From: Prevotella sp.
Lineage (GTDB): Bacteria > Bacteroidota > Bacteroidia > Bacteroidales > Bacteroidaceae
Length of the DNA stretch: 64,000 nt
Assembly: GCA_016291595.1 (NCBI GenBank)
Contig: JAEEXN010000002.1
Span: 50,991-114,990 of the forward strand
Reading direction: 5' to 3'
Part shown: positions 14,281 to 48,072 of the stretch, one piece after another
Numbering within the stretch: the stretch's first letter is position 1
How the letters are laid out: each line of letters starts with the position of its first letter
The notes under the pieces: generated by a model
What the model saw: the letters and a program-made list of their open reading frames with translations, nothing else
What the model was told of the DNA's origin: nothing
Database searches by the model: none
Made by a program: the position numbers and the translations under genes

Positions 14281-15273
14281 ATGAAACAAATATCTGTCAT
14301 CGTTCCCATATACAATGTGCAAGATTATCTTCGAAACTGCCTGGACAGTTTATATAAGCAATGGAATCCCAGCATTGAAGTAATTCTTGTAAACGACGGC
14401 TCGACAGACTTCTCGCTGAGCATATGTAAGGAATATCAAAAAAACTTTCCTGAGACAATTATCATAAATAAGCCAAATGGAGGTCTTTCTGATGCACGGA
14501 ATGCAGGTACAGCGATAGCAACGGGTGAATTTATTTATTACATGGATAGTGATGATTGGTTAGCTGCCGATGCGCTGAAAACTCTATCATGTTTTGCGAT
14601 CAAGAACCATTGTGACGTGGTTCAAGGCGGTTTTTACTATGCCTATGACGATTATTTGCTATTGGATGAAAGATATGTAAAAGCGGGTAAGGAACCATTT
14701 GTGCTGGCAAGGACTGAGGCCATGACCGAATTAATTAAACAACAGTATATCAAGAATTTTGCATGGGGAAAGTTGTACAAGACGGATATTGTAAAGGGAC
14801 ATCCATTTCCCAAAGGAAAATTCTATGAGGATTCTTTTTGGCAGCACCTCATTATTCATGAAACGAAGACATATGGCGTTATTCCTTCCCCACTCTACTA
14901 TTACCGTCAAAGGAAAGGAGGTATTTCGGGTGAGTTCTCAGAGAGAAACATGGACTTACTCATGGGAAATGAGCAACGCCTTTTGTTCATTAGCGACAAC
15001 TATCCTGAGCTGAAAGAGCCTATGGCGGCTATGCTTTGGAAACTTTGCAGTCAATTCAATGACATTGCAAAGAGATGTGGGAAAAAGGATATTAAATTAT
15101 TATATGAGGAGCAACTACAGACTATTGAAAAAAAATACCACCCTCTGCTACATAAAGATGCACAATATCGTATTTCGCATCATTTGCAGGCAGTAAAGCC
15201 TTTATGTCAGTTAGTGACAAGAGTTTACAACCGATTGTTCGGCAAGAAACTAACCAAAATAGAATTATCATGA
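14281..15273 (+). CDS. Glycosyltransferase family 2
   Basis: 330 residues, GT-A fold. ISVIVPIYNVQDYLRNCLDSLYKQ opens the protein, followed by VILVNDGSTDFS (nucleotide contact), GGLSDARNAG and YYMDSDDWL (DxD metal site). The C-terminal half is helical and variable, as usual for the EpsJ/CpsI-like GT2 group. It is tightly packed between a GT4 and the glycerophosphotransferase-like gene; the last 4 bp overlap the next start (ATGA). Donor unknown. Confidence 0.85.
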   Translation: MKQISVIVPIYNVQDYLRNCLDSLYKQWNPSIEVILVNDGSTDFSLSICKEYQKNFPETIIINKPNGGLSDARNAGTAIATGEFIYYMDSDDWLAADALKTLSCFAIKNHCDVVQGGFYYAYDDYLLLDERYVKAGKEPFVLARTEAMTELIKQQYIKNFAWGKLYKTDIVKGHPFPKGKFYEDSFWQHLIIHETKTYGVIPSPLYYYRQRKGGISGEFSERNMDLLMGNEQRLLFISDNYPELKEPMAAMLWKLCSQFNDIAKRCGKKDIKLLYEEQLQTIEKKYHPLLHKDAQYRISHHLQAVKPLCQLVTRVYNRLFGKKLTKIELS

Positions 15274-16394
15274 AGAATATTCTTTTCATAATTATCAATT
15301 GGATTTGCAACCGCCTACCCATCAATCGGAAGAAGATCTTTTTCATGAGCTATTATGGCAGTCAATATGGATGCAATCCTAAATATTTGAGCGAATATTT
15401 TGTGAAGAATCTCCCAGAATGGGATGTGGTCTGGGCCTTTACTGAACCAGATAAGCACGAACATATTGGTATCCGAAAAGTGCGATATATGTCTATGCGC
15501 TTTTTTTACGAATTATGCACAAGCAAAGCACTTGTGACCAACTATAGGATGATAAAGCTATACAAAAAGAGAAAAGAGCAGATATATATTCAGACATGGC
15601 ACAGTTCTTTGCGTTTGAAGATGATTGAAAGCGACGCGGAACAGTCTCTGCCTCCTCATTATGTCGATATGGCAAAAAGAGATTCTAAGCAGATTAGTGC
15701 ATTGCTATCTGGCTGCCGGTTTAGCACAGAAATCTTTAAGCGTTGTTTCTGGTATGATGGACCCATTATCCCTTCCGGAACACCTCGCGAAGACCTTTTA
15801 TTTTCCGATAATGTTTCTCTGAAGAGGGACATTCGGCTGAAACTGGGGGTTGGAATGAATGCCAAACTCTTATTATATGCGCCGACCTTTAGAAAAGACT
15901 ACTCATTAAGATACTATAACATTCAATTCGGGCCATTGATTGAGACGCTTCATGATAAATGGGGAGGCGAATGGATTGTTATTCTACGTTTGCACCCTCA
16001 TCTGAAAGACTTTTCCAAATTGTTGATGAACAATGACAAAAACATTGTTGACGCAACAAGCTATGATGACATTCAAGAATTGCTTTACGTGGCCGATGCG
16101 GTCATATCTGATTATTCAAGTCTCATTTTTGACTTCGCCATTACCCGCCGTCCTTGTTTGCTGTATGTACCAGACTTGGCAGAATACACAGAAAAGGACC
16201 GAACCCTATATTTTGACATTGATAAGTTGCCATTTCCAAAATGCCAAAATCATGACCAATTACTCAAATGCATTGAAACTTTTAACAGAAATGAATATAT
16301 AGCAAAAGTTGATGCATTTATGCAGCAGATTGGTTCATATGAAACAGGAAACTCATGCGAGAACGTTGCCCAATATATTATTGAAAACGTATAA
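15270..16394 (+). CDS. CDP-glycerol glycerophosphotransferase family protein (TagB/TagF-like)
   Basis: 374 residues from the ATG at 15270, which overlaps the preceding stop; the track start 66 bp upstream lies inside the previous gene. Features of the Glyphos_transf family are FMSYYGSQYGCNPKYLSEY, IQTWHSSLRLK (catalytic His region), IPSGTPREDLLF, LLLYAPTFRKDY, VILRLHPHL and VISDYSSLIFDFA. Such enzymes move glycerol phosphate (or ribitol phosphate) from the CDP-activated form, in Gram-positives to make teichoic acids and in some Gram-negatives to decorate or build capsules. The next gene is a CDP-glycerol synthase homologue, which supports glycerol phosphate as substrate. Confidence 0.85.
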   Translation: MKNILFIIINWICNRLPINRKKIFFMSYYGSQYGCNPKYLSEYFVKNLPEWDVVWAFTEPDKHEHIGIRKVRYMSMRFFYELCTSKALVTNYRMIKLYKKRKEQIYIQTWHSSLRLKMIESDAEQSLPPHYVDMAKRDSKQISALLSGCRFSTEIFKRCFWYDGPIIPSGTPREDLLFSDNVSLKRDIRLKLGVGMNAKLLLYAPTFRKDYSLRYYNIQFGPLIETLHDKWGGEWIVILRLHPHLKDFSKLLMNNDKNIVDATSYDDIQELLYVADAVISDYSSLIFDFAITRRPCLLYVPDLAEYTEKDRTLYFDIDKLPFPKCQNHDQLLKCIETFNRNEYIAKVDAFMQQIGSYETGNSCENVAQYIIENV

Positions 16395-23037: not shown

Positions 23038-24156
23038 ATGTTTGATTTCATACCTGTAGCTGATTACACTCTTTATTTCAATATCACAGTATTAATCTTA
23101 GTATTAATTGCTGTATGGCAGTGCCATACGGGAAGCGTGTTTAAGGATGATATCGTTCTGCTCAATGCTGGCTGGGGGTGTATTGTATTGGTTGCGTTGG
23201 TATTATATATGGGGCAGCGACAGGTTAGTGTGTTTTTCGGTGATACCGTGAATTATGCGCATGGCTTTAATATATACGCCAACTCTCCCCTACCGTTTCA
23301 ATGGCAACCCAAAAAGGAATGGCTGTTTGATAATATGATGCAATGGTTCGCAAAATACAGCGACATCCATACCTTTTTTACTTTTTGCTCGCTTATCTAT
23401 ATTGGTTCTCTATGGCTTGCCATGAAAAGGATATTTAAGGGATACTATTACATTCCTTTCATTGTTATCATAAGCATGTTTACGTTCTGGACTTACGGAG
23501 TGAATGGCATACGTAACGGATTAGGGGCGTCATTGTTTATTCTGGCACTCACGTATATTGAGAACCTGCCTGTGGCGATAGCTATATGTATTGTTGCTAT
23601 CGGAATGCATACTTCTGTCTTGCTAATGATAGCAGCAGCTGGTTTAGCCTGGTTTGTAAATAACAGTTATTACTATTTGTCGGGTTGGTTGCTCTCGGTT
23701 GTTGTTTCATACTTCGCCGGCGAAAGGATACAGGCATATCTTGCAGGAATGAGTCTCATCAGAGGAGATGAACGCTTCGCTGGTTATTTAACAGGAGAGA
23801 ATCAAGTAGGAGAGCTTATCCAAACTTCTATGGTGTTCCGCTGGGACTTTCTTCTTTATAGTGCTATGGCGGTTGCTGTGGGGTATTATTTTATATTTAA
23901 AAGGAACTTTAAAGACGAATACTATCATTGGATTTATAATGTATATTTGATTACAAATGCGTTTTGGGTATTAGTTGTTCGTGCCACATACTCCAACCGT
24001 ATTGCCCAAATTTCGTGGTTTATCATGCCTGTCGTATTGATTTATCCTTTTGTAAAAGAACGTTTTTGGCCCGACCATGAAAAAAAGCTTGGATATGCAT
24101 TACTTGCTTTTTATGCATTTGCATTCTATTATAATATTATCAAGACACTGATATAA
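23038..24156 (+). CDS. EpsG-family/Wzy-like polysaccharide polymerase
   Basis: Integral membrane protein of 372 residues with about ten hydrophobic segments. A periplasmic loop after the third segment contains VFFGDTVNYAHGF, and the segment FWTYGVNGIRNGLGASLFIL carries the GIRNGLA-like signature typical of EpsG-family proteins, which polymerise lipid-linked repeat units in Wzx/Wzy systems. It lies in the middle of the glycosyltransferase run. Two more polymerase-like proteins are encoded at 27474 and 38956, so which one builds which polymer is not clear from sequence. Confidence 0.8.
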   Translation: MFDFIPVADYTLYFNITVLILVLIAVWQCHTGSVFKDDIVLLNAGWGCIVLVALVLYMGQRQVSVFFGDTVNYAHGFNIYANSPLPFQWQPKKEWLFDNMMQWFAKYSDIHTFFTFCSLIYIGSLWLAMKRIFKGYYYIPFIVIISMFTFWTYGVNGIRNGLGASLFILALTYIENLPVAIAICIVAIGMHTSVLLMIAAAGLAWFVNNSYYYLSGWLLSVVVSYFAGERIQAYLAGMSLIRGDERFAGYLTGENQVGELIQTSMVFRWDFLLYSAMAVAVGYYFIFKRNFKDEYYHWIYNVYLITNAFWVLVVRATYSNRIAQISWFIMPVVLIYPFVKERFWPDHEKKLGYALLAFYAFAFYYNIIKTLI

Positions 24157-26411: not shown

Positions 26412-27389
26412 ATGATTTCAGTAATTGTTCCCATATATAACGTAGATGACTATCTGAGCACATGTATATCTAGTATCATCAATCAGACGTATAAGGACCT
26501 TGAGATAATTCTCGTTGATGACGGCTCAACTGATCATTCCGGGCAAATATGTGAGGAGTTTGACAAACTGGATAATCGTGTTCAAGTTATTCACAAAAAA
26601 AACGAAGGAGTATCTGAGGCAAGAAATGAAGGATTAAGGCATACTCATGGAGAATACATCTCGTTTGTTGATGCAGATGATTTCATTCATCCACAAATGT
26701 TGGAGATCCTTTACAACTTGATAAAAAAAGGAGATTATGATTTTTCCATGATACTTGGAAAAACTGTTTCTCGTAATGAAATCATAGACATGAACCATTC
26801 AGAGATAGGCTTTGAGAATACGCAAGTCTTATCAGATACTGATCTAGTTGAAAGAATATTTGGTCTATCAAGTATAAACACTCAATACCAGGTACTTTGG
26901 AATAAACTTTATAAAAAAGAATTGCTTGAGGACATCTGGTTTGTTAGAACAGCTTCAGAGGACACCCATTATCTTAATAGAGTATATTTGAAAACAAAAA
27001 AGGCGATTCTTCTTGAAAAGGAACTATACTTTTATGTTCAAAGAAGTGCTTCTATTTCGCATGAAGGAGTCTCACCATATTTTGTTGATAAAATAAATTC
27101 TTATGCGCTCTGTTTGGATGATATTCCAAAAGAAAAACCGCATTTCCGAACTTTATGCTTAGAAAAATTGTACAAGGTAATCCTTCATACACGCTACTAT
27201 ACTGCAAAAAGTGAATTAAAAGGAAAGTGTAATCAGATTAGTAAAACCATATATAGAAAAACGATTAAGGAGTATTTAGGCTCTGACATTCACGCAATAA
27301 AGAAATACGGTTTGCTCTGTTTCTACTATTTTCCTTCTTTATATAAACTGTTCATTTGGTATAGTAACTACAGAGCCAAACAAAGATGA
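26412..27389 (+). CDS. Glycosyltransferase family 2
   Basis: 325 residues, with ISVIVPIYNVDDYLSTCISSI, ILVDDGSTDHSGQICEEFD, GVSEARNEGLRHTHGEY and SFVDADDFIHPQM. The middle residue pattern VDADD differs from VDSDD of its neighbours but keeps the metal-binding acids. It follows the preceding gene after 12 bp and is separated from the fused polymerase gene by 84 bp with no visible terminator. It is very AT-rich. Confidence 0.85.
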   Translation: MISVIVPIYNVDDYLSTCISSIINQTYKDLEIILVDDGSTDHSGQICEEFDKLDNRVQVIHKKNEGVSEARNEGLRHTHGEYISFVDADDFIHPQMLEILYNLIKKGDYDFSMILGKTVSRNEIIDMNHSEIGFENTQVLSDTDLVERIFGLSSINTQYQVLWNKLYKKELLEDIWFVRTASEDTHYLNRVYLKTKKAILLEKELYFYVQRSASISHEGVSPYFVDKINSYALCLDDIPKEKPHFRTLCLEKLYKVILHTRYYTAKSELKGKCNQISKTIYRKTIKEYLGSDIHAIKKYGLLCFYYFPSLYKLFIWYSNYRAKQR

Positions 27390-27473: not shown

Positions 27474-29450
27474 ATGTTGTCTACTGATATTAAACTGAAA
27501 AAAATTCTTCGATCTGAATTCTGGGCGAAGTTGAATAAACGTGTAGGACCTTGGTTGTTTTACATCGGGTTGTTTTTAATGTTCTTCAACTCAAACTATT
27601 TATGGAATTCAGATAGTATGCCAAAAGAGGTGCTACAATTCTGTTACTACACTTCACAGTGTGGAAGGGGATTTCTTTGCTTACGGTTATTATTGATGAT
27701 GGCGTGTTATCCACGTTACGTTATTGGATGTTCCCTTATCGGATTGGCATCTTTCTATATTCTTACAATTGGAGGAGATTATAGCCTTGTGAATTTGGTA
27801 CTGGTATTGAGTGCTTCGCGTGATGCCAATATACGTGTTATACTACGTATTTTCCTAATAGCACTTATTATTCATCTAATTTCAGCCCGTTTGTTTTATG
27901 CTTTTGGTTGGGCAGAAGACATTATGAGGCACCGATGGAATCTTGTAGGGCATTCTTATGGAACTGCCAATCCAGGTACTTTAGCACAGAAGCTAATGCT
28001 AATAGTGCTGCTCTTATTATTGCTATTTAAGGTGAAGCGTAGGGCAATTATTTGGACGATTTGCATATCAGGGGCAATAAGCATTTGCTATCTAACTCTT
28101 CGAATGTCTGAGACTATGGGGCTACTTTTGATTCCTTTGATATATATTATACTCTGTCGGCACAAGATACCTTCCAATTGGTTAGCCGTCCTTCCTCTAT
28201 TGTGTCTGCTCCTATCAGTTTTATTGGCATATTGGTGTGGGGCAGGTTATGGTTCCACGACATTCGAAAGTCGTTTTAGCATACCCCATTTGATTTACAA
28301 TAATGTAGGACTTAGTTTTCTCAGCCAAGATTGCGGATTGATTGAAAACAGAGATGCTTGGGCTCTTGGAATAAAGCCATTGGCTTTCGACAACATATAT
28401 CTGCGCATTTTTCTATGTGACGGAATAATTATGGGAACAGGAATAATGGTCTTTTTGTCTTACTTACTTTATCGCATCGGGAAGATTGGGAAACCTTTAT
28501 TGACTGCTATAGCTGTGGTATTCATCATAAGTGGGATCATGGAGCATTTACCTCTGGAAGTATTTAAGAATTTCACATTGTTCTACTGTCTATATGATTA
28601 TAAAGGACTAACTACCTTTAGCCTCCGACTAATAAGTTCAATCGCTGCCATTACAGTAGGTATTATATTGTTCTATCTGTATGCCCCATGGGGATTCCGG
28701 CCCTCTTTTTCTTATCATGATGGTCGTATTGATGATATCGCTCCCCCACAAGGATTTGAACGTATTTCGGGAAAGAACTCACTCTATACCGCTTTTATAC
28801 GCAGCCTTCCCTTAGCCCAACCTGATTCTTCACTCATGCATTTTGACCGTACCCCAAATGATTCTCTCCAATTATATAGATATCGGGTACTGGATTTTCC
28901 TTTACTGGACAATTATGAACAATGTGCAGATGTTTGTATGAGACTTCGTGCAGAATATTTGTATTGTAACCGCCGGTTCTTCGACATTTGTTTTACTGAT
29001 ACTCGCCAAAAAGCGCTACATTATTATTTCGGGTATTGCCGACCAGCTTTTAACAAGTTCTTGACAACAGTATACTCATGGGCCAATACCGAATCTATGA
29101 AACTTTCTATGCATGTCCGCAAATTAGCTGACATACAGCCTGGTGATGTATTTGTCTACGATAAATATTCACGGCCGTCTTCTCGCTATGGCCATGCTGT
29201 TTTTGTTGCAGATGTCGCCGTTAACCCGACTACTGGTCAGAAAGCATTCCTACTCATTCAGGGTTCTACCCCTGCTAGTGATATCCACGTTATTCGCAAC
29301 CTGGCGAATCCAGACATTTCTCCTTGGTTCCTTTTGGATCCCAAGTATTTAAAGAAAGATTTCTCTGCAGGAATCCCAGATTCTACATCATGTGTGCTGG
29401 ATTTTGGATGTTCACGATATTACCCTGATGAGCTTCGCCATTTCGACTAG
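27474..29450 (+). CDS. Wzy-like membrane polymerase fused to a C-terminal DUF4846 domain
   Basis: 658 residues in one open frame. Residues 1-410 are an integral membrane region of roughly ten to twelve helices; RHRWNLVGHSYGTANPG and SFLSQDCGLIENRDAWALG followed by DNIYLRIFLCDG fit polymerase/O-antigen-ligase-like proteins with a large periplasmic loop. From about residue 420 (APPQGFERI, NSLYTAFIRSLPL) the protein matches DUF4846: VLDFPLLDNYEQCADVCMRLRAEYLY, QPGDVFVYD, RYGHAVFVADVAVNPTTGQK and LLIQGSTPASDIHV. DUF4846 normally stands alone as a secreted or lipoprotein-type protein. Cys484 before a helix, His574 in GHAV and Gln596 lie in an order reminiscent of papain-like NlpC/P60 enzymes; catalysis is inference. 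The domain should face the periplasm. Confidence 0.78.
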   Translation: MLSTDIKLKKILRSEFWAKLNKRVGPWLFYIGLFLMFFNSNYLWNSDSMPKEVLQFCYYTSQCGRGFLCLRLLLMMACYPRYVIGCSLIGLASFYILTIGGDYSLVNLVLVLSASRDANIRVILRIFLIALIIHLISARLFYAFGWAEDIMRHRWNLVGHSYGTANPGTLAQKLMLIVLLLLLLFKVKRRAIIWTICISGAISICYLTLRMSETMGLLLIPLIYIILCRHKIPSNWLAVLPLLCLLLSVLLAYWCGAGYGSTTFESRFSIPHLIYNNVGLSFLSQDCGLIENRDAWALGIKPLAFDNIYLRIFLCDGIIMGTGIMVFLSYLLYRIGKIGKPLLTAIAVVFIISGIMEHLPLEVFKNFTLFYCLYDYKGLTTFSLRLISSIAAITVGIILFYLYAPWGFRPSFSYHDGRIDDIAPPQGFERISGKNSLYTAFIRSLPLAQPDSSLMHFDRTPNDSLQLYRYRVLDFPLLDNYEQCADVCMRLRAEYLYCNRRFFDICFTDTRQKALHYYFGYCRPAFNKFLTTVYSWANTESMKLSMHVRKLADIQPGDVFVYDKYSRPSSRYGHAVFVADVAVNPTTGQKAFLLIQGSTPASDIHVIRNLANPDISPWFLLDPKYLKKDFSAGIPDSTSCVLDFGCSRYYPDELRHFD

Positions 29451-29489: not shown

Positions 29490-30083
29490 ATGTACTTATA
29501 CGGAGCAAGCGGTCATGCCCTGGTGATCATCGACATCATTGAGGCTATGGGACTGAGCGTGGAATATCTGTTTGATGATAACCCCGAGATTCATGAACTA
29601 AGAGGAATACCTGTGTCACATGAGTACCATCAGGAAGAACCCCTCATCCTTAGCATCGGAAATAATAGTATCAGGAAACAACTGGCTGAGAAGATGAAAA
29701 ATGTCACTTTCGGAAAGGCCATTCACCCTGCTTCTATTATCTCTCCGCATGCAACTATCGCAGAAGGGACTGTGGTTATGCCTGGTGCTATTATCAATAG
29801 CGGAACTATTATCGGTAAACATTGTATCGTGAATACAAGTGCATCTGTAGACCATGAGTGTAGAATAGATGATTACGCTCATATCTCCCCTAATGTTACA
29901 TTGTGTGGAAATGTGCATATTGGTGAGGGAGCATGGATTGGTGCCGGAACCACCGTAATTCCAGGTATTAAGATTGGGAAATGGGCAGTCATCGGAGCAG
30001 GATCTGTTGTATTAAGAGATATTCCTGACGGTGTGGTAGCATATGGGAATCCTTGTAAAATCAAAAGCAAATTGTTTGAATGA
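29490..30083 (+). CDS. PglD-like sugar O/N-acetyltransferase (left-handed beta-helix)
   Basis: 197 residues. The N-terminal MYLYGASGHALVIIDIIE is the Rossmann-like PglD_N domain that holds the UDP-sugar. From residue about 75 hexapeptide repeats form a left-handed beta-helix (IISPHATIAEGTVVMPGAII, VNTSASVDHECRI, IGAGTTVIPGI); VDHE carries the His expected to deprotonate the 4-amino group. Predicted to use acetyl-CoA to acetylate UDP-4-amino-4,6-dideoxy-GlcNAc. Neighbours at 30080, 31218, 32031 and 33188 complete a Pgl-like route. Overlaps the next gene by 4 bp. Confidence 0.85.
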   Translation: MYLYGASGHALVIIDIIEAMGLSVEYLFDDNPEIHELRGIPVSHEYHQEEPLILSIGNNSIRKQLAEKMKNVTFGKAIHPASIISPHATIAEGTVVMPGAIINSGTIIGKHCIVNTSASVDHECRIDDYAHISPNVTLCGNVHIGEGAWIGAGTTVIPGIKIGKWAVIGAGSVVLRDIPDGVVAYGNPCKIKSKLFE

Positions 30084-31217: not shown

Positions 31218-31889
31218 ATGCCATCTAAAAAAACTTCGTTCTTCATAACTAATTCATCACATTTAGCCAGATTCAGACTTGTGTATAAAAAATATTCCAA
31301 AAGACTGTTAGACTTTTGTATATCGCTAATTGCGATTATCTGCCTATCTCCTATTCTATTGGTTGTGGCCATTTGGTTACACTTTGCGAATAGGGGAAGT
31401 GGAACCTTTTTCCTACAAGAAAGGCCAGGACGTAATGGAAAAATCTTCAAAATAATCAAGTTCAAGACAATGACGGACGAACGGGACGCTGAAGGGAATC
31501 TACTGCCCGACGAGAAACGACTCACATCTTTTGGGAAATTTATCAGATCAACTTCGCTTGACGAACTTCCACAACTGATCAATGTGCTAAAAGGTGATAT
31601 GGCTCTGATTGGCCCCCGCCCCCTATTAGTACAATATCTGTCACTATATTCTCCCGAACAAGCTCGACGACATGAAGTACGGCCGGGAATCACAGGTTGG
31701 GCACAATGCCATGGACGGAATGCTATCAGTTGGAAAGAGAAATTCGAATACGATGTATGGTATGTGGACCATCTTTCTTTTTTAACTGATTTGAAGGTCA
31801 TATATTATACGAGTCTGACTGTGTTTAAACGAGATGGCATCGCCCACGAGGGTAGTATGACCATGGAGCCTTTTAATGGAAAAAACTGA
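31218..31889 (+). CDS. Initiating phosphoglycosyltransferase (PglC/WcaJ-C type)
   Basis: 223 residues. One re-entrant hydrophobic segment (LLDFCISLIAIICLSPILLVVAIWL) is followed by the catalytic domain of monotopic phosphoglycosyltransferases: FLQERPGRNGKIFKIIKFKTM, STSLDELPQLINVLKGDMALIGPRP and HEVRPGITGWAQCHGRN. The Asp-Glu of LDELP is the catalytic dyad. It transfers a phospho-sugar, probably diNAc-bacillosamine phosphate given its neighbours, to undecaprenyl phosphate. A 25-residue basic N-terminal extension precedes the membrane segment, with no later Met available. A second enzyme of this class is encoded at 48398. Confidence 0.88.
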   Translation: MPSKKTSFFITNSSHLARFRLVYKKYSKRLLDFCISLIAIICLSPILLVVAIWLHFANRGSGTFFLQERPGRNGKIFKIIKFKTMTDERDAEGNLLPDEKRLTSFGKFIRSTSLDELPQLINVLKGDMALIGPRPLLVQYLSLYSPEQARRHEVRPGITGWAQCHGRNAISWKEKFEYDVWYVDHLSFLTDLKVIYYTSLTVFKRDGIAHEGSMTMEPFNGKN

Positions 31890-32030: not shown

Positions 32031-33191
32031 ATGGGGAAAGGAAACAGAATCTATTTATGCCTGGCCCACATGTCGGGCAATGAGATGAAATACATACAAG
32101 AAGCATTTGATACCAATTGGGTAGTTCCACTTGGCCCTAACGTGAATGCTTTTGAAGAAGATTTGGAACGGTATGTAGGTGAGGACAAAAAGGTGGTCGT
32201 ATTGTCAGCTGGTACTGCAGCCATCCATTTATCATTGGTATATTTGGGCATTCAGTCTGGTGATGAGGTAATCTGCCAGTCATTCACTTTCTCTGCATCT
32301 GCTAACCCAGTGGTCTATCAAGGTGCAACGCCAGTATTTGTAGACTCTGAGAAAGACTCGTGGAATATGGATCCTGAACTGCTGGAAGACGCTATTAAAA
32401 ATCGTGTCAAGAAGACCGGACGCAAGCCAAAGGCTATTATTCCCGTCTATCTGTATGGCATGCCAGCACGCATCACAGAAATTATGGAAATCGCAGAGCG
32501 CTACGATATTCCTGTGATTGAGGATGCAGCTGAAGCTTTTGGTTCAAGGTTTAAAGGACAAGTGTGTGGAACTTTCGGCAAGATGGGAATTATGAGTTTT
32601 AATGGTAATAAAATGATTACCACTAGCGGAGGTGGTGCTCTGATTTGCCCTAATGAAGAGACAAAGCGGAAAATCACTTTCTATGCAACGCAAGCCCGTG
32701 AGAACAAACCATACTATCTCCATGAGGAAATCGGATTTAACTATCGGATGAGTAATATCTGCGCGGGTATTGGGCGTGGGCAGATGACCGTTGCAGACGA
32801 ACATATCGCCCATCACAAGCACCTATGTGACCTATATGTTGAATTGTTGAAAGACTCGGATGAGGTGGTAGTGCATGTAAACCCCACATCTGACTATGAT
32901 TCCAACTATTGGTTGAATACCATTACTTTCCCTAAAGCAGAAAGGACGAAAAATGAACCCGCAGAATTGGTAGAACGAGTAAGGGTACATCTGGAGGAAA
33001 AAGGTATTGAGTCGCGTCCGCTTTGGAAACCGATGCACACGCAACCAGTGTTTAAAGATGCTCCTGCTTACGTTAACGGAGTGTCTGAGCATCTTTTCGA
33101 GATTGGTCTTTGCCTTCCAAGCGGTCCCTTGGTGACTGATGAGGATGCAGGAAGAATTGCCAGTGAAATATTAAAATGTATACATGGATGA
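32031..33191 (+). CDS. DegT/DnrJ-family PLP aminotransferase (PglE-like)
   Basis: 386 residues. IYLCLAHMSGNEMKYIQEAF is the PglE/LegC-type opening, LSAGTAAIHLSLVYLGI binds the cofactor phosphate, and IEDAAEAFGS supplies the Asp that contacts the PLP ring nitrogen. FNGNKMITTSGGG carries the Schiff-base lysine. Expected reaction: glutamate-dependent amination of UDP-4-keto-6-deoxy-GlcNAc to UDP-4-amino-4,6-dideoxy-GlcNAc. Substrate is supplied by the dehydratase encoded next and the product is acetylated by the PglD-like enzyme. Overlaps the next start by 4 bp. Confidence 0.87.
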   Translation: MGKGNRIYLCLAHMSGNEMKYIQEAFDTNWVVPLGPNVNAFEEDLERYVGEDKKVVVLSAGTAAIHLSLVYLGIQSGDEVICQSFTFSASANPVVYQGATPVFVDSEKDSWNMDPELLEDAIKNRVKKTGRKPKAIIPVYLYGMPARITEIMEIAERYDIPVIEDAAEAFGSRFKGQVCGTFGKMGIMSFNGNKMITTSGGGALICPNEETKRKITFYATQARENKPYYLHEEIGFNYRMSNICAGIGRGQMTVADEHIAHHKHLCDLYVELLKDSDEVVVHVNPTSDYDSNYWLNTITFPKAERTKNEPAELVERVRVHLEEKGIESRPLWKPMHTQPVFKDAPAYVNGVSEHLFEIGLCLPSGPLVTDEDAGRIASEILKCIHG

Positions 33192-35128
33192 AAGACTTTA
33201 TAGAAAAATTATTCACCTGGTATTTTGATAGGAAATCATTGCCCTATTGGGCACTAATCATACTTGACTGTCTGATTGTATACCTCTCAGGACTGTATAG
33301 TTACTGGCTCTATAGTCGTGGCGTTGAAACGTTGGCTAATGTTGTGCCTATCACACATACGCTGTTATTGTATTTGGGATTGTACATTATCTCCTTCAGG
33401 GTATTTCACACATATTCAGGTATTATCCGCTATTCGTCGTTCTCTGACCTGAAACGTATCGTATATGCGATGGCATTAGGAACCCTATTAGCATTTATCC
33501 TCCATCGATGGATGTTTACATGGGAGACTACGCAATTCTTCAAACTGGGTGGCAACCATGTTGCAGTAATGGGAATGACGGCCACAGTATTAATGTGTGC
33601 GGTGCGAGTGTTAGTAAAAACCATCTACGATTCGGTGTTTCTGAACAGCAGCGCTGTACCAGCATTAGTGTACGGTGTTAAAGACGGAGGTGTAATGATT
33701 GCGAACACAATCCGAAACGAAAGACCAACACGATTCTTGTTGAAAGGCTTTATCAGTCATGAAAACCAATTTGCCCACCAGCGACTCATTGGTGAAAAAG
33801 TTTTTGCTGCGGACGATGAATTGAAAAAGCATATTGAAAAGAATGGCATTAAAGCGATTCTAGTGTCCCCACTTCGAAATGATGATTTCCGCAACGACCA
33901 AAAACTACAAGAACTTCTGTTGGAAGCTGGTGTACAGATTTATATGGCAAAAGGGCTGGACCTGGGAACAGACAATATTAAGAACTCTCAACAATTGCAG
34001 GAAGTGAGTATTGAGGATTTGTTACCACGTGATGAAATCTCAATCGACATGCATGCAATAGAGGAACAACTGCGCGGAAAAACCATCATGATTACAGGGT
34101 CTGCAGGAAGTATCGGTTTCGAAATTGTAAAACAGGTGGCATCATATAAGCCAAGGCTACTGGTTCTGATTGATCAGGCAGAGACCCCGCAACATGATGT
34201 CCGCTTATATATGAAAAAACAATGGCCTGACATTAAAACAGAGACAATCGTCACATCTATCTGCAAGGAAAAGCGAATGGAGCAGATTTTCAGCGAATAC
34301 CGTCCTGATTATGTGTTCCATGCCGCAGCCTATAAGCACGTACCAATGATGGAAGATAATCCCGCTGAAAGTGTTCAAAACAACATTTTGGGCACAAAGA
34401 TTATTGCAGACTTGGCTGTGAGATATGGAGTGAAAAAATTTGTCATGGTGTCTACCGACAAGGCAGTGAATCCCACAAATGTGATGGGATGTTCAAAGCG
34501 CATCTGTGAGATATATGTACAGTCTCTCGACAAGGCTATTAAAGACGGAAAGTTCGATAGTGCAGTCACTCAGTTTGTGACGACACGCTTCGGTAATGTG
34601 CTTGACTCAAACGGTTCTGTCATACCACTATTCCGCAAGCAGATAGCCTCAGGCGGGCCAATTACTGTGACACACCCAGATATTATACGTTACTTTATGC
34701 TCATCCCCGAAGCCTGTGCTTTGGTGTTAGAGGCAGGGACAAGCGGTCGTGGCGGAGAGGTATTTGCTTTTGATATGGGAAAACCGGTAAAAATAGCTGA
34801 TCTGGCCAAACGAATGATTCAACTGAGTGATGCCAAAAACATAGAAATTGTGTACACTGGACTTCGTCCGGGCGAAAAACTATACGAGGAAGTGTTGAAC
34901 GATGAGGAGCTTACCATTGCCACCACTAATCCCAAAATAAGAATTGCCCGACTAAAGGTATATGAGTATGAGGAAATATGCAAAGAGATTAACAAACTGA
35001 TTGAAACCACATTGCAGTACGACGATATGAAGATTGTAGCAATGATGAAACGGATAGTTCCTGAATACAAAAGCCAAAATTCTATCTATGAGAAATTAGA
35101 TAGTCAGTTGAAAAAAGATAATGATTAG
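33188..35128 (+). CDS. UDP-GlcNAc 4,6-dehydratase, long membrane type (PglF/WbpM/CapD family)
   Basis: 646 residues from the ATG at 33188, which overlaps the preceding stop. The first ~150 residues hold four to five membrane helices; a CoA-binding-like Rossmann domain follows (ALVYGVKDGGVMIANTI), then the catalytic SDR domain with TIMITGSAGSIGFEIVKQV (GxxGxxG) and STDKAVNPTNVMGCSK. Met replaces the usual catalytic Tyr before the Lys (NVMGCSK), the known hallmark of this family. It converts UDP-GlcNAc to UDP-4-keto-6-deoxy sugar at the inner membrane. It is the last gene of the Pgl-like block. Confidence 0.9.
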   Translation: MKDFIEKLFTWYFDRKSLPYWALIILDCLIVYLSGLYSYWLYSRGVETLANVVPITHTLLLYLGLYIISFRVFHTYSGIIRYSSFSDLKRIVYAMALGTLLAFILHRWMFTWETTQFFKLGGNHVAVMGMTATVLMCAVRVLVKTIYDSVFLNSSAVPALVYGVKDGGVMIANTIRNERPTRFLLKGFISHENQFAHQRLIGEKVFAADDELKKHIEKNGIKAILVSPLRNDDFRNDQKLQELLLEAGVQIYMAKGLDLGTDNIKNSQQLQEVSIEDLLPRDEISIDMHAIEEQLRGKTIMITGSAGSIGFEIVKQVASYKPRLLVLIDQAETPQHDVRLYMKKQWPDIKTETIVTSICKEKRMEQIFSEYRPDYVFHAAAYKHVPMMEDNPAESVQNNILGTKIIADLAVRYGVKKFVMVSTDKAVNPTNVMGCSKRICEIYVQSLDKAIKDGKFDSAVTQFVTTRFGNVLDSNGSVIPLFRKQIASGGPITVTHPDIIRYFMLIPEACALVLEAGTSGRGGEVFAFDMGKPVKIADLAKRMIQLSDAKNIEIVYTGLRPGEKLYEEVLNDEELTIATTNPKIRIARLKVYEYEEICKEINKLIETTLQYDDMKIVAMMKRIVPEYKSQNSIYEKLDSQLKKDND

Positions 35129-35283
35129 CCTGGTTTCGTGTTATGTCTTCTCCGTTTTCCATATTATTCACGATTGCGACAAGTAAACTAGCCGCCTATT
35201 CTTGCCTTTTTTCGCAATTATTATGAACCAATAACAATAAAACATGCGAAAACGGGTTATATTTTATATATAAAACTACCATT

Positions 35284-37851
35284 ATGAAAAGAATTATCAT
35301 ACTGACCATATATGCTTTCTTGTTTGCTGTATGTGCCTCAGCACAATCGAGCATGACGGATTCACAGGTAATGCAGATGCTCATTAAAGAAAAAGCCGCA
35401 GGCACATCCCAACAGCAAATCGTTACCAAATTGGTGCAAAGCGGTGTGGACATACAACAAATCCAGCGAGTAAAAAAAATGTATGAGCGGGAAATGAAAG
35501 GCTCTGGTTTAGGCAACCTCTCTTCTTCTACCGACACGCAAGATCGCAGCCGTGTGGCTAATGGGAAAAAACGCGAGGATTATCAGCAACAACAAGAACA
35601 GATTCCTTACAGGATTAAGGATATGAGTACTAAAAAGAGTCCTGTGGTCTATGACGAGACAAATCCTGAATGGCTGCTCATGCAACAGGAACTGGACTCA
35701 TTCATACCCGACTCTACTGCCTTGTTGAAACAACTGATAGCAGAGCGTGACAAAAACAAAAAGAAAGTTTTCGGACGTGATATTTTCAACAACAAAGAAC
35801 TGACATTTGAACCCAACATGAATATAGCCACACCCCAAAATTACCGTCTGGGACCTGGTGATGCCGTATTCATCGATATTTATGGAGCTTCGCAAAAGTC
35901 TATTGAGAGTACGGTATCACCAGATGGCACCGTAACAATTGAAGGCTTCGGTCCTGTGTATGTAAGCGGGATGACTGTCGGTCAGGCAAATGCGCACCTC
36001 CGCTCCACATTAGGATCGCGTTACAGTAGCAGCCAAATCAAGCTAACTGTCGGACAAACCCGTACCATCATGGTAAACATTATGGGTGAGGTGAAAATGC
36101 CTGGAACCTATACTTTGTCAGCATTCGCCACCGTTTTCCATGCACTTTACATGGCAGGAGGCACCAACGATCTGGGTACCCTTCGAAACATTAAAGTTTT
36201 CCGCAACAACAAACTCGTGACTACCGTCGATATATATGACTACATGTTGAATGGGAAACTGACTGGGAATGTACGATTGGCAGATAATGACGTGATTGTC
36301 GTTGGTCCTTACGACTGTCTTGTAAACATTTCGGGTAAGGTGAAACGCCCGATGATTTACGAAATGCGCAAAAATGAAAGCGTTACCACACTGCTGAAAT
36401 ACGCAGGAGGATTTACAGGTGATGCATATACCAAGCAAGTAAGACTAGTACGAAAGACAGGTCGGGAATATTCCGTTCATAACGTTGAGGAGTTCGATTT
36501 CTCATCGTTCCATTTAGCAGATGAAGACTCTGTCAGTGTTGATAGCATTATTTCCAGATTCTCCAATATGGTGGAATTGAAGGGCGCCGTATTCCGTCCG
36601 GGCATGTATCAGGTAGGTGGACAAATCTATAGTGTTCGTTCTCTGCTTGAGAGTGCAGAAGGACTAAAAGAAGAGGCATTCACGGCGCATGCCGTCATGC
36701 ACCGCATGAAAAGCGACCGCTCGTTAGAGGTAATCCCTGTGGATGTAGAAGGCATTTTGAACGGTCAAGTTGCCGACATACCCCTAAAGCCAAACGACGT
36801 ACTGTTTATCCCTACCAAAAGGGAGATGATGGAGGAACAGACCATCACCATTCACGGCGAAGTGCATTATCCAGGTATATACAAATATGCAGAGAATGAG
36901 ACACTAGAGGACTTTGTGTTGCAGGCCGGTGGACTGAAACAGACAGCCTCAACTGTGAAAGTAGATGTGGCCCGTCGTGTAAGAAACCCGAAGGCACTAA
37001 CAACAGACAGTTTGATAGCACAAACGTATAGTTTTGCTCTGAAGGATGGTTTTGTGATTGACGGTGAAAGCGGTTTCAAACTCCAACCCTTCGATGAGGT
37101 ATATGTACGCAAGAGTCCAGGTTACTACGAACAGCAGAATGTCACCATCGAAGGCGAAGTGATGTTCGGTGGTTCATATACCCTCTCTAAGAAAGATCAG
37201 CGATTGAGCGACCTCGTAAAAGCTGCCGGCGGAGTGAACGATCGTGCTTATATCAAGGGTGCAAGACTGGAAAGACGTTATACCAGAGAGGAGCGTCTCC
37301 GTGCGGAGGCTGTATTAAAGAAAGCTCAAGAAGAACTTGAGACTAGTCTCCTTGAACAGGCCGCAAGGACTGGTAACAGCAATCTTAGCAGCCTCAGTAA
37401 CAAAGAACAACTGCGTAAATATGAAGTAGGATCCACCTATCCCGTTGGTATTGAATTAGACAAGGCCTTAGCCAACCCAGGCTGCAACGATGATATTATT
37501 CTGCGCGAAGGCGACCGTTTGGTTGTTCCACAATACGAAGCTACCGTAAAAATCAATGGCGAGGTGATGTATCCTAATACCGTAGGTTATATCAAAGGTA
37601 AAAAGGCGAGCTATTACATCGACCAGGCTGGCGGTTTCTCTAACAAGGCTAAAAAGCGCAAGAGTTATATCATATACATGAACGGCAAGGTTGAGACTGT
37701 CAGCCATAATGCCAAGCCTGAGCCTGGCTGCGAGATTGTAGTACCCTCGAAGTCGCTGAGCAAGACCTCTATCTCTGAGACCTTGAGCATTGCCACGGGA
37801 GTCGGCTCATTTGCTGCCATTATTGCTACATTGGTCAGCTTAATTAAGTAA
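35284..37851 (+). CDS. Large multi-SLBB polysaccharide export protein (Wza-like)
   Basis: 855 residues, three times the size of the Wza-like protein at 5462. Signal peptide ends CASAQS and lacks a lipobox Cys. The polysaccharide export domain is near residues 180-265 (NYRLGPGDAVFIDIYGASQ, GTVTIEGFGPVYVSGM). At least five SLBB modules follow (VNIMGEVKMPGTY, VNISGKVKRPMIY, VELKGAVFRPGMY, ITIHGEVHYPGIY, VTIEGEVMFGGSY, VKINGEVMYPNTV), and a C-terminal membrane helix (SIATGVGSFAAIIATLVSLI). It should form the outer-membrane gate and periplasmic tunnel for a second polymer. It begins a new assembly set, 155 bp after the dehydratase gene. Confidence 0.88.
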   Translation: MKRIIILTIYAFLFAVCASAQSSMTDSQVMQMLIKEKAAGTSQQQIVTKLVQSGVDIQQIQRVKKMYEREMKGSGLGNLSSSTDTQDRSRVANGKKREDYQQQQEQIPYRIKDMSTKKSPVVYDETNPEWLLMQQELDSFIPDSTALLKQLIAERDKNKKKVFGRDIFNNKELTFEPNMNIATPQNYRLGPGDAVFIDIYGASQKSIESTVSPDGTVTIEGFGPVYVSGMTVGQANAHLRSTLGSRYSSSQIKLTVGQTRTIMVNIMGEVKMPGTYTLSAFATVFHALYMAGGTNDLGTLRNIKVFRNNKLVTTVDIYDYMLNGKLTGNVRLADNDVIVVGPYDCLVNISGKVKRPMIYEMRKNESVTTLLKYAGGFTGDAYTKQVRLVRKTGREYSVHNVEEFDFSSFHLADEDSVSVDSIISRFSNMVELKGAVFRPGMYQVGGQIYSVRSLLESAEGLKEEAFTAHAVMHRMKSDRSLEVIPVDVEGILNGQVADIPLKPNDVLFIPTKREMMEEQTITIHGEVHYPGIYKYAENETLEDFVLQAGGLKQTASTVKVDVARRVRNPKALTTDSLIAQTYSFALKDGFVIDGESGFKLQPFDEVYVRKSPGYYEQQNVTIEGEVMFGGSYTLSKKDQRLSDLVKAAGGVNDRAYIKGARLERRYTREERLRAEAVLKKAQEELETSLLEQAARTGNSNLSSLSNKEQLRKYEVGSTYPVGIELDKALANPGCNDDIILREGDRLVVPQYEATVKINGEVMYPNTVGYIKGKKASYYIDQAGGFSNKAKKRKSYIIYMNGKVETVSHNAKPEPGCEIVVPSKSLSKTSISETLSIATGVGSFAAIIATLVSLIK

Positions 37852-37856
37852 AAGAT

Positions 37857-38933
37857 ATGAACGAGAATAACAATACGAACATCATCGACCTCAGAGAAAT
37901 CATCAAAAGGATATGGGACAAGAAGATGGTATTTCTGAAAGTTCTCCCAATCGTCTTTGTTCTGTCATGTGTATATATCCTCCCCGAGCCGAGATATTAT
38001 ACTTCGAACGTGACATTGGCTCCTGAAATGGGGAGTGTCACAGGCGGAGGTTCCCTTACATCGATAGCCTCATCATTCGGTGTCGACTTAGGAACCTTGC
38101 AGAATTCTGATGCCATCTACCCTGACTTATATCCTGATTTGATGGAATCGACAGAATTTGTGGTAAGTTTATTTGATACCAAAGTGACGAATTTAGACGG
38201 AGACATCCAGACAGATTATTTTACGTACCTGGCAAAACACCGTAAACGTTCCATTTGGAAAAAGCCTGGTGACTGGGTTAAAAAGCAAATCAGAAAACTG
38301 ACAGAGCCAAAGCAGATATCTACACCCAATAACAGCGAAAAAGGAGTAAACCCATTCTTTCTGAACAAAAAGCAACATGGAATTGTAGGAGTAATCCGAG
38401 AAAACATCACATGTAATGTAGACAAGAAAACATCGGTCATCACCATTACAGTAAAAGACCAAGACAAGCTGATTTGTGCCAGCATGGCAGACTCTGTCAG
38501 GGTAAGACTACAGGAGTACATTACGAACTATCGTACTCATAAGGCGAAGATTGACGTAGAGCATTACTCGAAACTAACCACTGAGGCCAAGCATATCTAC
38601 GAGAAGGCACGTCAACTCTATGGTAGCTTCTCAGATGCAAACAGCGATGTCATACTCGAAAGCTACCGGGCCAAAAGAAATGACTTGGAAAACGACATGC
38701 AACTGAAGTATAACACCTATACGGCATTAAACACCCAATTGCAGGCTGCAAAGGCAAAACTACAAGAAATCACACCTGCATTCACGGTCATACAGTGTGC
38801 ATCTGTTCCTGAGAAGCCGGCCGGTCCAAAACGAATGCTGTTTGTGCTGGGTATGATTTTCTTTGCTGCAATTGTCACTACATTCTGGTTGATTAAAGAC
38901 ATTTTGGGCATCGTGCCTTTAAATAAAGAGTAG
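37857..38933 (+). CDS. Wzz-family chain-length determinant without kinase domain
   Basis: 358 residues with TM1 near 25-45 (MVFLKVLPIVFVLSCVYIL), a periplasmic region with long helices (EHYSKLTTEAKHIYEKARQL, DLENDMQLKYNTY) and TM2 near 325-345 (MLFVLGMIFFAAIVTTFWLI). The Pro-rich VPEKPAGPKR motif before TM2 is the usual Wzz signature. There is no Walker A motif after TM2, only a short tail, so control cannot be by its own tyrosine phosphorylation. Partner of the large export protein directly upstream (5-bp gap). Confidence 0.87.
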   Translation: MNENNNTNIIDLREIIKRIWDKKMVFLKVLPIVFVLSCVYILPEPRYYTSNVTLAPEMGSVTGGGSLTSIASSFGVDLGTLQNSDAIYPDLYPDLMESTEFVVSLFDTKVTNLDGDIQTDYFTYLAKHRKRSIWKKPGDWVKKQIRKLTEPKQISTPNNSEKGVNPFFLNKKQHGIVGVIRENITCNVDKKTSVITITVKDQDKLICASMADSVRVRLQEYITNYRTHKAKIDVEHYSKLTTEAKHIYEKARQLYGSFSDANSDVILESYRAKRNDLENDMQLKYNTYTALNTQLQAAKAKLQEITPAFTVIQCASVPEKPAGPKRMLFVLGMIFFAAIVTTFWLIKDILGIVPLNKE

Positions 38934-38955
38934 ATATTGCAGAAGAGCTACGCAC

Positions 38956-40152
38956 ATGATTATTGACTTCAAGAAGATTACATGGCTACCTTGTCTTATT
39001 ATCCTTGTCTTGACAATGAGGATGTGCATTGCTTTAGCAGAAATGGAGATGCCAGCGTTATCTTATGGTTTTCTTGCTATAGAGTTGTTATCTTTCCTAC
39101 TCATGTCTTTTCTCTACTTCAAAGATGGAATAATCACAAAATATCTATTTTTTGTCATTCTATACCAGTTGCTCCTGCTGGTTTTCAGCATCCTTAACGG
39201 GACAAATGCAAAAGATAGCTTCTATCTTGGTTGTGGATGCATTCTGATTGTCATCATGATGGAATACTACAAAGAGAGACTCAGCATGATTCTCTTTGCT
39301 TTTTCCATTGCATTTTCCATATGTATATACATGAATTTTTTCCACTTGATAACGCACCCTCATCTATGGCTCATTGACGAGAATAAGTCGCTGACAGGCT
39401 ATCTGCTTGGAAATAACTATAATCAGATGGGATGCCGCCTTTTATGTGCTGTTGCAATCAATATCCTGTGTTTCAGGTTGAAGAAGTTTTGGATCATCAA
39501 TACCATTCCCCTTATTATTGTGTCCGTAGCAACAGTAGCTATCGTACGCTCGATGACCTCGTTGACACTTATTACCCTTTTCCTGGTTTTCTGTTTCTTG
39601 CCTTCAAAGAAATTACAACGAACAGGCATTATTTCACTCCTAGTTTTCTATGTGTTTTTCCAAATATTCGTATGCTTTAATGGGAAAGGACTTGAAAATA
39701 ACGAATTGGCTGTATACTTTATCGAAGATGTTTTGAAGAAAGACATTACTTTCACCAATAGAACAGAATTATGGGATGCAGCAGCTCATGCTTTTATGCA
39801 GTCGCCCATCATTGGATATGGATTTGTTGACAGCGACTGGTATTTCTCCCACATGAGTTCTGCCGCTATGGGACCCCATAATTTTATTTATTCTGTCTTA
39901 ATCAATGGTGGTGTCGTCCTACTATTAGTTTTCATTGCCATCTTCATTCTTGCCACAAAAAAGGCTTTTACGATGAATGACAGAAGCACCAATGTGCTGT
40001 TGGCAGCAACTGCCGTCCTATTGTTTATGATGACGATGGAGGTGTATCCTCTCTCTTTTATTCTTCTCCTGCTGTCGCTAGTCTATTACCGTCCATGCAT
40101 TGACGACAAGCCAAGAAAAGATCTGGAACAGTCTACAATCCAAGTGAGTTAG
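38956..40152 (+). CDS. O-antigen polymerase/ligase-like membrane protein (Wzy)
   Basis: 398 residues with about ten membrane helices. The C-terminal part carries the Wzy/WaaL signature: FTNRTELWDAAAHAFMQSPI, IGYGFVDSD and GPHNFIYSVLINGGVVLLL. The Arg of NRTELW and the His of PHN are the conserved positions of this family. It sits between Wzz and a second flippase, the expected place for the polymerase of the second set. A ligase role cannot be excluded. Confidence 0.8.
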   Translation: MIIDFKKITWLPCLIILVLTMRMCIALAEMEMPALSYGFLAIELLSFLLMSFLYFKDGIITKYLFFVILYQLLLLVFSILNGTNAKDSFYLGCGCILIVIMMEYYKERLSMILFAFSIAFSICIYMNFFHLITHPHLWLIDENKSLTGYLLGNNYNQMGCRLLCAVAINILCFRLKKFWIINTIPLIIVSVATVAIVRSMTSLTLITLFLVFCFLPSKKLQRTGIISLLVFYVFFQIFVCFNGKGLENNELAVYFIEDVLKKDITFTNRTELWDAAAHAFMQSPIIGYGFVDSDWYFSHMSSAAMGPHNFIYSVLINGGVVLLLVFIAIFILATKKAFTMNDRSTNVLLAATAVLLFMMTMEVYPLSFILLLLSLVYYRPCIDDKPRKDLEQSTIQVS

Positions 40153-40153
40153 T

Positions 40154-41662
40154 ATGAAAGAAAACACCAACCAAACTATCATATATAACACAGGGATACT
40201 TTTTATCAGGCTCTTCGTCACGACAATATGTGGTCTGCTTACGACACGCTATGCACTACAGGCACTAGGTATCACCGACTTTGGTGTATTTTCTCTGATT
40301 GGAAGCATTGTCACTTTCATATCCATTTTAAACCAAATCATGATTTCCACATCCAATCGCTTTATATCGATAGAGATTGGCATAGGAAAAACAAAGGATA
40401 TAAATGAACAGTTTAACATCAACTTTATCATCCATGTAGCCATAGCCATAGCCACACTACTGATAGGACTGCCACTGGGGCATTGGTATATTCACAACTT
40501 TGTCAATTTTGACGGCGACATCAACGATGTCATCTTTGTGTTCAACTTGTCAATCATCAGTGCCGCCATTTCGTTTATCGGCATTCCTTACAACGGACTA
40601 CTCATGGCCAAAGAGAGATTCATTGTATTCAGTACGGTTGATGTATTTGTACATATCATCAAAACTATCATCGCATACCTGTTAATAAACTTCTTTGTTG
40701 ATAAACTTCAAGTTTACGCCATTGCACTGAGCATACTTACCGTGCTCCCCGTATTGTTATTCTATCTGTATTGCAGTAAGTATTATCACAAGGAAACTGA
40801 ATTGCACGTTGTCACTAACAAGAAAAAATACAAAAAGGTATTCTCCTTCTCTTCATGGGTGGCATTCGGAGCATTCGTTTCTGTCGGTCAGGGGCAAGGT
40901 GCAGCTATGATTGTCAATGCATTTTTCAATACAGTAATGAATGCAGCCATGGGAATAGCCAATACAGTGAACATACTTATTACATCTTTTGCTAGTAATG
41001 TGTCGCAACCCATTGCCCCGCAGATTACAAAGAGTTATGCTGCCAACAACTATGAGCGATGTGAGGAACTTCTGATTATATCGACTAAATTCACCTTCCT
41101 ATCCATGTTTTTGGTGTCGGCACCACTTATGATTGATGCAAAATGGCTGCTCTCGCTATGGCTTGGACAAGTGCCCCCATACGTTATTACATTTACCTTA
41201 CTAATTGTCATCAACACGCTCATCACGTCAGCCAATTCAGGCATTTCGAATCTTATATTCGCAAGTGGGAAAATTGCGCTATACCAAATTATCGTAAACA
41301 TGCTGAGAATCTTTTCGATGGTAGGTGCATACCTCATTCTGAAAAAAGGATGTGTAGCATATAGTCTGTTCTATGTCTATATTGTTTTTTCGTTTCTCAT
41401 ATTCTTAAGCAGCCAGTGGGTATTAAAAAAGACGATACATTTAGGTTACAGTGTCCTGTTCAAACATTCATACATTCCGTCACTTGCCGTGACTATTTGT
41501 TTCATTCCCGTATGTTTCATCCATTGGAACGTTCATCCTCTCATCCGCATAGTCCTCTTGATGCTATACCTCATGGTAATTGTCTACCATATTGGTCTGT
41601 CTCGCCAAGAACGCAAGTATCTTTATAATTTTCTTACGTCCAAAAACAAACAAACAAGATGA
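40154..41662 (+). CDS. wzx: Second Wzx-like flippase (MOP superfamily)
   Basis: 502 residues with 12-14 hydrophobic segments. LFIRLFVTTICGLLTTRYALQAL, ITDFGVFSLIGSIVTFISIL and FIGIPYNGLLMAKERF are typical of the oligosaccharide flippase group found beside Wzy. Only one base separates it from the polymerase gene. It is unlike the flippase at 10784 in its opening and middle, supporting separate repeat units rather than a recent duplication. It overlaps the GT-D-like gene by 4 bp. Confidence 0.88.
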   Translation: MKENTNQTIIYNTGILFIRLFVTTICGLLTTRYALQALGITDFGVFSLIGSIVTFISILNQIMISTSNRFISIEIGIGKTKDINEQFNINFIIHVAIAIATLLIGLPLGHWYIHNFVNFDGDINDVIFVFNLSIISAAISFIGIPYNGLLMAKERFIVFSTVDVFVHIIKTIIAYLLINFFVDKLQVYAIALSILTVLPVLLFYLYCSKYYHKETELHVVTNKKKYKKVFSFSSWVAFGAFVSVGQGQGAAMIVNAFFNTVMNAAMGIANTVNILITSFASNVSQPIAPQITKSYAANNYERCEELLIISTKFTFLSMFLVSAPLMIDAKWLLSLWLGQVPPYVITFTLLIVINTLITSANSGISNLIFASGKIALYQIIVNMLRIFSMVGAYLILKKGCVAYSLFYVYIVFSFLIFLSSQWVLKKTIHLGYSVLFKHSYIPSLAVTICFIPVCFIHWNVHPLIRIVLLMLYLMVIVYHIGLSRQERKYLYNFLTSKNKQTR

Positions 41663-42627: not shown

Positions 42628-42694
42628 TTTACGAATTTCATAATCAATCATATCAACAACTTTGAAATATTTTAACATAGACTTCGCTAATCCT

Positions 42695-45440: not shown

Positions 45441-45491
45441 TCCGAAACATAATAATTCGTACACCCATGGCGTTATTTATTAAAAACAACT

Positions 45492-46418: not shown

Positions 46419-46429
46419 CTTCTGCGTCA

Positions 46430-47892: not shown

Positions 47893-47899
47893 TATTTCC

Positions 47900-47923
47900 G
47901 GCTTGAAAACTTGCATTCAAGCC
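47900..47923 (+). other. Perfect hairpin at the end of the second operon, overlapping a promoter
   Basis: GGCTTGAA (47900-47907) pairs with TTCAAGCC (47916-47923) across 8 nt, starting 8 bp after the GT2 stop codon. No U-run follows. The loop contains the TTG used as the -33 element of the next promoter, so it could act as an mRNA end, an operator, or both. Confidence 0.6.
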
Positions 47924-47941: not shown

Positions 47942-47946
47942 CAGAA

Positions 47947-48043: not shown

Positions 48044-48072
48044 ATTTTATAAGCACCCTATTGAAAGGCTTT

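Follow-up and report, generated by a model that had tools for sequence, protein, structure and literature searches.

We found that a gene on the forward strand at positions 27474–29450 of a Prevotella sp. window (the window being the whole stretch of DNA analysed, 64,000 nucleotides) joins a polytopic membrane domain, probably a glycosyltransferase of the Wzy/WaaL type, in frame to a DUF4846 domain. The fusion is real and recurs. Its N-terminal relatives are strictly linked to DUF4846, and its triad residues are conserved. Our favoured reading, to which we give a probability of roughly 0.45, sees in the protein an envelope enzyme with two functions, in which a wall amidase is tethered to a glycan polymerase or ligase.

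One open frame joins two domains

The frame encodes 658 residues with zero internal stops, and its C-terminal part matches the Pfam DUF4846 profile (PF16138) in two stretches with an E-value of 6.1e-41 and a score of 140.9 bits, against a cut-off of 37. The first-pass annotation had described an in-frame fusion carrying a complete DUF4846 domain at these coordinates, and that description is borne out. The N-terminal domain covers residues 1–404 (27474–28685, forward strand), on the evidence of hydropathy, the structural model, the Foldseek match to WaaL (7tpg) and the family motifs. The DUF4846 domain covers about residues 415–658 (28716–29447, forward strand); from Pfam and the AlphaFold2 model it is predicted to be papain-like and periplasmic. 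Up to residue 404 there are at least nine membrane helices by hydropathy and about 12 in the model, in agreement with the polytopic topology first proposed.

The last of these helices, at about residues 386–404, is the counterpart of the signal anchor in unfused DUF4846 partners. This is seen in the split relative of genome G001 (locus L019, on the same contig as L073), where a 368-aa wzy-like gene ends 23 bp ahead of a DUF4846 gene that encodes a signal-anchor helix of its own. The window protein is 35% identical to the wzy-like half and 52% identical to the DUF4846 half of this pair, and in it the anchor helix persists as the final membrane-spanning segment. From this retained helix we infer that the DUF4846 domain sits in the periplasm, which supports the location suggested by the first reading. 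An internal restart yielding a separate DUF4846 protein was rejected: no ATG or GTG lies in frame at the junction of the two halves, and TTG, at residues 369 and 399, is the only kind of in-frame alternative start nearby. Separately, a second, unfused wzy-like protein (L070:9183–10412) ends in an extra membrane helix like the joining helix of the fusions, followed by a stop; this helix is perhaps the remnant of a former fusion.

The pairing recurs in Bacteroidales

A profile of the N-terminal half, scanned against 84,980 species genomes, recovered seven loci, all from Bacteroidales metagenome assemblies and several with rumen-type isolate names. DUF4846 is fused to the wzy-like protein or encoded within about 1.3 kb of it in all seven, and the same holds for all ten N-terminal relatives found in eight genomes, the window included. 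Two of the loci carry the same fusion, L071 with 652 aa and L074 with at least 515 aa, where the contig end cuts the frame; the remaining loci hold split pairs. DUF4846 is the next gene after the wzy-like gene in L073 and L070, and an acyltransferase-3 gene stands between the two in L068, L069 and L072. An acyltransferase-3 gene is also found beside the pair in L073, and further ones near L070. Both L068 and L070 have a second wzy-like gene, each also less than 1 kb from DUF4846.

In an order-level sample of 393 genomes, N-terminal relatives occur in three, all of them DUF4846 carriers, and DUF4846 itself in 54; a phylum-level sample gave a DUF4846 match in 28 of 396 genomes. Across these two samples, frames well over 360 aa are limited to the window and two M15-fused relatives, and the earlier statement that DUF4846 usually occurs as a secreted protein of its own therefore holds. 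In a family-level sample (349 genomes) the N-terminal part was present only in the window's genome and in G001. The window copy is the only DUF4846 in its assembled genome; two DUF4846 genes lie in tandem in genome G391 (L096:4293–6129).

Chance adjacency of the wzy-like gene and DUF4846 is not credible. The transferase and DUF4846 halves probably work together, because every relative found keeps them fused or side by side. An assembly or frameshift artefact was ruled out by the two further fusions together with the split pairs. That the fusion is present in one genome only of the genus sample would suit a neutral, chance in-frame joining with no joint function, but the same fusion at L071 and L074, the strict adjacency elsewhere and the single origin of the linked DUF4846 copies in the tree below make such an accident, or an artefact, scarcely tenable.

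We built a tree of 62 DUF4846 domains, eight of them wzy-linked, with 200 bootstrap trees. The eight wzy-linked domains are monophyletic (support 100/96, and in 100% of bootstrap trees). Their sister group consists of stand-alone DUF4846s with an N-terminal membrane helix, and the lipoprotein-type DUF4846s found in the window's own genus are distant from them. Being monophyletic and apart from the lipoprotein type of the genus, the wzy-linked copies constitute a distinct lineage. Within this lineage the window clusters with L074 (99/93) and L071 with split forms (97/87). Since fused copies fall in separate groups of the DUF4846 tree, at least two fusions or fissions are needed, although support in the transferase tree is too low to corroborate such repeated events. 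As one part of the favoured reading, and sharing its slightly less than even odds, the wzy-like protein and DUF4846 would make up a rare, recurrent two-part module of Bacteroidales whose parts are joined in some genomes and encoded separately in others.

The N-terminal half resembles the O-antigen ligase WaaL

The N-terminal part has no match in Pfam or NCBIfam, including the Wzy_C, EpsG and O-antigen polymerase families, and the N-terminal parts of the L070 and L071 relatives likewise match no curated family; we therefore assign the protein to none of these families. NCBIfam and PHROGs returned no match for the whole fusion protein, and sequence searches found no solved structure for either half. 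The whole-protein model is of moderate quality (pLDDT 66.5). From this moderate model, the best Foldseek match of the N-terminal half in the PDB is the O-antigen ligase WaaL (7tpg; probability 0.92, E 0.12), and every other PDB fold match listed has a probability of 0.14 or less. Because the best fold match is WaaL, we consider the N-terminal half to be probably a Wzy/WaaL-type (GT-C-like) glycosyltransferase, either a polymerase or a ligase. As the only meaningful match, WaaL also lends support to the original description of this half as Wzy-like.

The elements invariant in the ten relatives include H153, N166-P167, R267 within the motif TTFESRFSIP, and N307. Conserved Arg residues that serve the diphosphate are expected of WaaL/Wzy-type enzymes. 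Adjoining N307 is D306, which is Asp in six relatives and Asn in four. The acceptor site is a His in O-antigen ligases versus an Asp or Glu in polymerases (PMC10920833), and D306 is possibly the equivalent of this residue. Like the WaaL and Wzy proteins (GT-C type, CAZy GT119–GT135; PMC10920833), the fusion is polytopic and has a long loop with an invariant Arg (R267), and WaaL is its best fold match, at the E-value given above; it differs from them in having neither a Pfam Wzy_C nor an NCBIfam match and in carrying an extra, predicted enzyme domain at its C-terminus.

The DUF4846 half is probably a papain-like domain

The DUF4846 domain, modelled by AlphaFold2 with 28 sequences, gave a confident prediction (pLDDT 89.9, pTM 0.88). 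Cys484 (codon 28923–28925, forward strand), the predicted nucleophile, is the first residue of the helix 484–498 and is conserved in 50 of 51 bacterial DUF4846 members. Gly557-Asp558 (29142–29147, forward strand) form the GD motif of NlpC/P60-like enzymes just ahead of the strand 559–562 (G in 51 and D in 47 of the 51). His574 (29193–29195, forward strand) starts the strand 574–583 and is conserved in all 51. The third polar residue, Gln596 (29259–29261, forward strand), is at the end of the strand 590–597; this position is Gln in 46 members and Glu in four. The first-pass annotation had placed Cys484, His574 and Gln596 in conserved blocks, and these counts agree with it. The equivalents of all three are invariant in a 28-row alignment that includes phage members. 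The order of elements in the model, helix with Cys, GD strand, His strand and Gln strand, is the papain-like order.

A 2023 survey of papain-like proteins classed DUF4846 as papain-like and, on the strength of its GD motif, proposed that it acts at the wall in the manner of NlpC/P60 (PMC10318531). Foldseek of the DUF4846 model against the PDB gave no significant match; the best was the catalytic domain of a Clostridioides autolysin (9ubf, E 0.6), and the list includes the NlpC/P60 protein 4fdy at E 0.6 or worse. Against viral structures the top entries were a lysin (E 0.036), a CHAP protein, a DUF2272 protein and an NlpC/P60 protein, at non-significant E-values of 0.036–0.16. Weak CHAP profile matches were found in five of 28 DUF4846 members, the window domain among them (best E 0.0012). 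A papain-like fold is probable, and the likeness to NlpC/P60 enzymes that had been noted stands as far as the papain-like order is concerned but lacks a significant structural match. With the CHAP and NlpC/P60 amidases and endopeptidases the domain shares the order of a Cys at a helix start, a GD strand, a His strand and a polar third residue, together with the weak CHAP match; it departs from them in the stretch of about 60 residues from the Cys helix to the GD strand and in the Foldseek result.

With respect to the DUF4846 family itself (PF16138; PMC10318531), the fusion keeps the Cys-GD-His-Gln signature and scores far over the profile cut-off. The difference is in architecture: family members are usually stand-alone lipoproteins or signal-anchored proteins, and the window copy is fused to a polytopic glycosyltransferase and belongs to a separate, membrane-anchored lineage. 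The domain could instead have lost its enzyme activity and serve the polymerase as an anchor, either structural or through binding to the wall, and inactive papain-like wall binders such as DUF1175 do exist (PMC10318531). However, the Cys, His, Gln and GD are all retained in the window and in the other wzy-linked copies, and we regard a non-catalytic domain as improbable.

Gene context points to peptidoglycan as the probable substrate

The wzy-linked DUF4846 of L068, L069 and L072 carries a fused M15_4 (VanY-type) peptidase domain. Pfam identified this domain in L059 and L060, whose contigs are those of L068 and L072, and a profile built from L059 and L060 then picked out L069. Two distant families show a 4-bp overlap between the DUF4846 gene and a gene for an M23 peptidase (L090:4424–6066 and L063:7220–8625). 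Among the stand-alone copies in the loci listed, no neighbour is conserved beyond M23 in these two and some genes that a few pairs have in common. A membrane protein of unknown family and a small LytTR-like gene recur near stand-alone, membrane-anchored DUF4846 genes (L020:9736–10707 and L061:5849–6811).

DUF4846 is also found in 29 viral-contig loci of IMG/VR. In these phages it follows an Amidase_2 gene in L115 and an M15 endolysin gene in L117, and in L137 a holin gene is one gene away. When 58 phage neighbours were scanned with PHROGs, most of the families recognised were HNH, replication and GroES, with lysis genes beside some copies only, and a search of the published phage genomes in INPHARED with a phage DUF4846 gave no match. 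In the IMG/VR contigs L113–L138 the DUF4846 gene is near locus position 3000–3700. In phages of Bacteroidota, DUF4846 may be a lysis protein that has gone unrecognised.

Three independent contexts, namely the M15 fusion, the M23 coupling and the phage lysis neighbours in some loci, support peptidoglycan as the likely substrate of DUF4846, and the polymer itself, which the first-pass annotation had proposed, is the less likely target. In a reading of this kind the cysteine domain would trim or release the polysaccharide, as first proposed, or acylate it, in some genomes with an acyltransferase-3 partner. The acyltransferase-3 genes between the pair in three loci, beside it in L073 and near L070 would fit such a role. 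The M15 and M23 partners and the phage amidase, endolysin and holin neighbours point instead to wall peptide bonds, and acyltransferase-3 genes of these types are absent from the 64-kb window and from the surroundings of L071 and L074. Modification of the polymer is therefore rather unlikely.

The same peptidoglycan context would also fit a ligase role, in which both domains together link the glycan by a covalent bond to peptidoglycan or to a wall peptide; the cysteine domain would then provide or uncover the acceptor, by acyl-enzyme transfer and not hydrolysis. The fold match is to a ligase, and transferases exist among papain-like families. On the other hand, a 2025 review places covalent attachment of capsule to peptidoglycan in Gram-positives, via LCP enzymes, and describes other retention routes in Gram-negatives. 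Further, D306, a polymerase-type residue, may occupy the ligase His position, which is Asn in four relatives. We consider covalent attachment unlikely.

The fusion is not a standard part of its EPS locus

The window contains what appear to be two tandem EPS loci, at 5462–31889 and 33176–49027, each with export, flippase and initiating-transferase genes, some of them assigned by sequence reading only. EPS locus 1 includes a Poly_export/SLBB_2 gene (5462–6286; Pfam Poly_export and SLBB_2), a Wzx-type flippase (10784–12304; Polysacc_synt_3, E 7e-84), an EpsG-family protein that is a separate polymerase candidate (23038–24156; EpsG, E 1.5e-18) and an initiating sugar phosphotransferase (31218–31889; Bac_transf, E 1.6e-62), all on the forward strand. 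On the same strand, a family-2 glycosyltransferase (26412–27389; Glycos_transf_2, E 1.9e-39) is 84 bp upstream of the fusion, and a PglD-like acetyltransferase (29490–30083; Hexapep and PglD_N) is 39 bp downstream. The two EPS loci together hold three polymerase-like membrane proteins, namely EpsG, the fusion and a Wzy_C protein in EPS locus 2 (38956–40152) that is the only Wzy_C match of the genome, as well as two Bac_transf genes. EPS locus 1 also contains a CDP-glycerol glycerophosphotransferase-like gene (15204–16394), which suggests that its glycan may be decorated with glycerol phosphate.

The genes flanking the fusion recur, without it, in about a third of 100 congeners, and L071 and L074 stand alone, away from EPS genes. 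The fusion module is therefore not a standard part of EPS locus 1. A capsule-specific role is weakened, since homologues in other genomes lie outside EPS operons and EPS locus 1 has its EpsG-type polymerase candidate.

These orphan sites, the patchy distribution across families and the presence of DUF4846 in phages might suggest that the orphan wzy-like, acyltransferase and endolysin-like genes form a mobile cassette that alters the surface glycan, perhaps excluding phages. Seroconverting phages carry O-acetylase and Wzy genes. Yet the phage DUF4846s fall outside the linked lineage in our tree, and in the flanks that were read we noticed neither an integrase nor a structural gene of phages; we regard such serotype conversion as very improbable.

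Discussion

We propose that the fusion combines glycan assembly with local cutting of the wall. The N-terminal half would act as a WaaL/Wzy-type transferase on an undecaprenyl-PP-linked glycan at the periplasmic face of the inner membrane. The C-terminal half would be a tethered papain-like cysteine amidase or endopeptidase, with Cys484, His574 and Gln596 at its active site, that cuts peptidoglycan stem peptides next to the transferase. Such a cut would open the mesh locally, and the growing or released glycan might then pass through the wall or lodge in it. The papain-like fold, the periplasmic site, peptidoglycan as the substrate and the Wzy/WaaL-type transferase are inferred with support. 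The enzymatic activity, the bond specificity and the coupling of the halves are predictions, and that cutting serves the passage or placement of the glycan is conjecture.

Specialised lytic transglycosylases of secretion systems are wall hydrolases dedicated to trans-envelope machines. The fusion would share with them the logic of a local wall cutter serving an envelope machine. Those enzymes, however, are separate proteins that cut glycan strands, whereas here a cysteine peptidase-type domain lies within or beside a glycan transferase. Our literature search found no Wzy protein fused to or acting with a wall hydrolase, and in the main text of the 2025 review of capsule attachment the words "hydrolase" and "fusion" are absent. 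The first-pass annotation knew of no described system of this kind, and the literature searched agrees. The pairing is new; both halves resemble known kinds of protein, and the papain-like class of DUF4846 is already published.

More tentatively than for the enzyme itself, and with odds of only about one in three, the fusion may represent a class of envelope machine not described before in Gram-negatives: a polymerase or ligase with its own cysteine wall amidase would bring glycan assembly and the opening or anchoring of peptidoglycan to one site. If this is true, a single system would embrace the linked DUF4846 lineage, the M15-fused form and the repeated fusion or fission, all as variants of it. 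A transferase joined to a wall-cutting domain would offer a direct handle on how long surface glycans cross or attach to Gram-negative peptidoglycan, as a single Cys mutation would separate the two activities. DUF4846, which is widespread in Bacteroidota and whose function is unknown, would gain a proposed role as a wall hydrolase that is also carried by phages.
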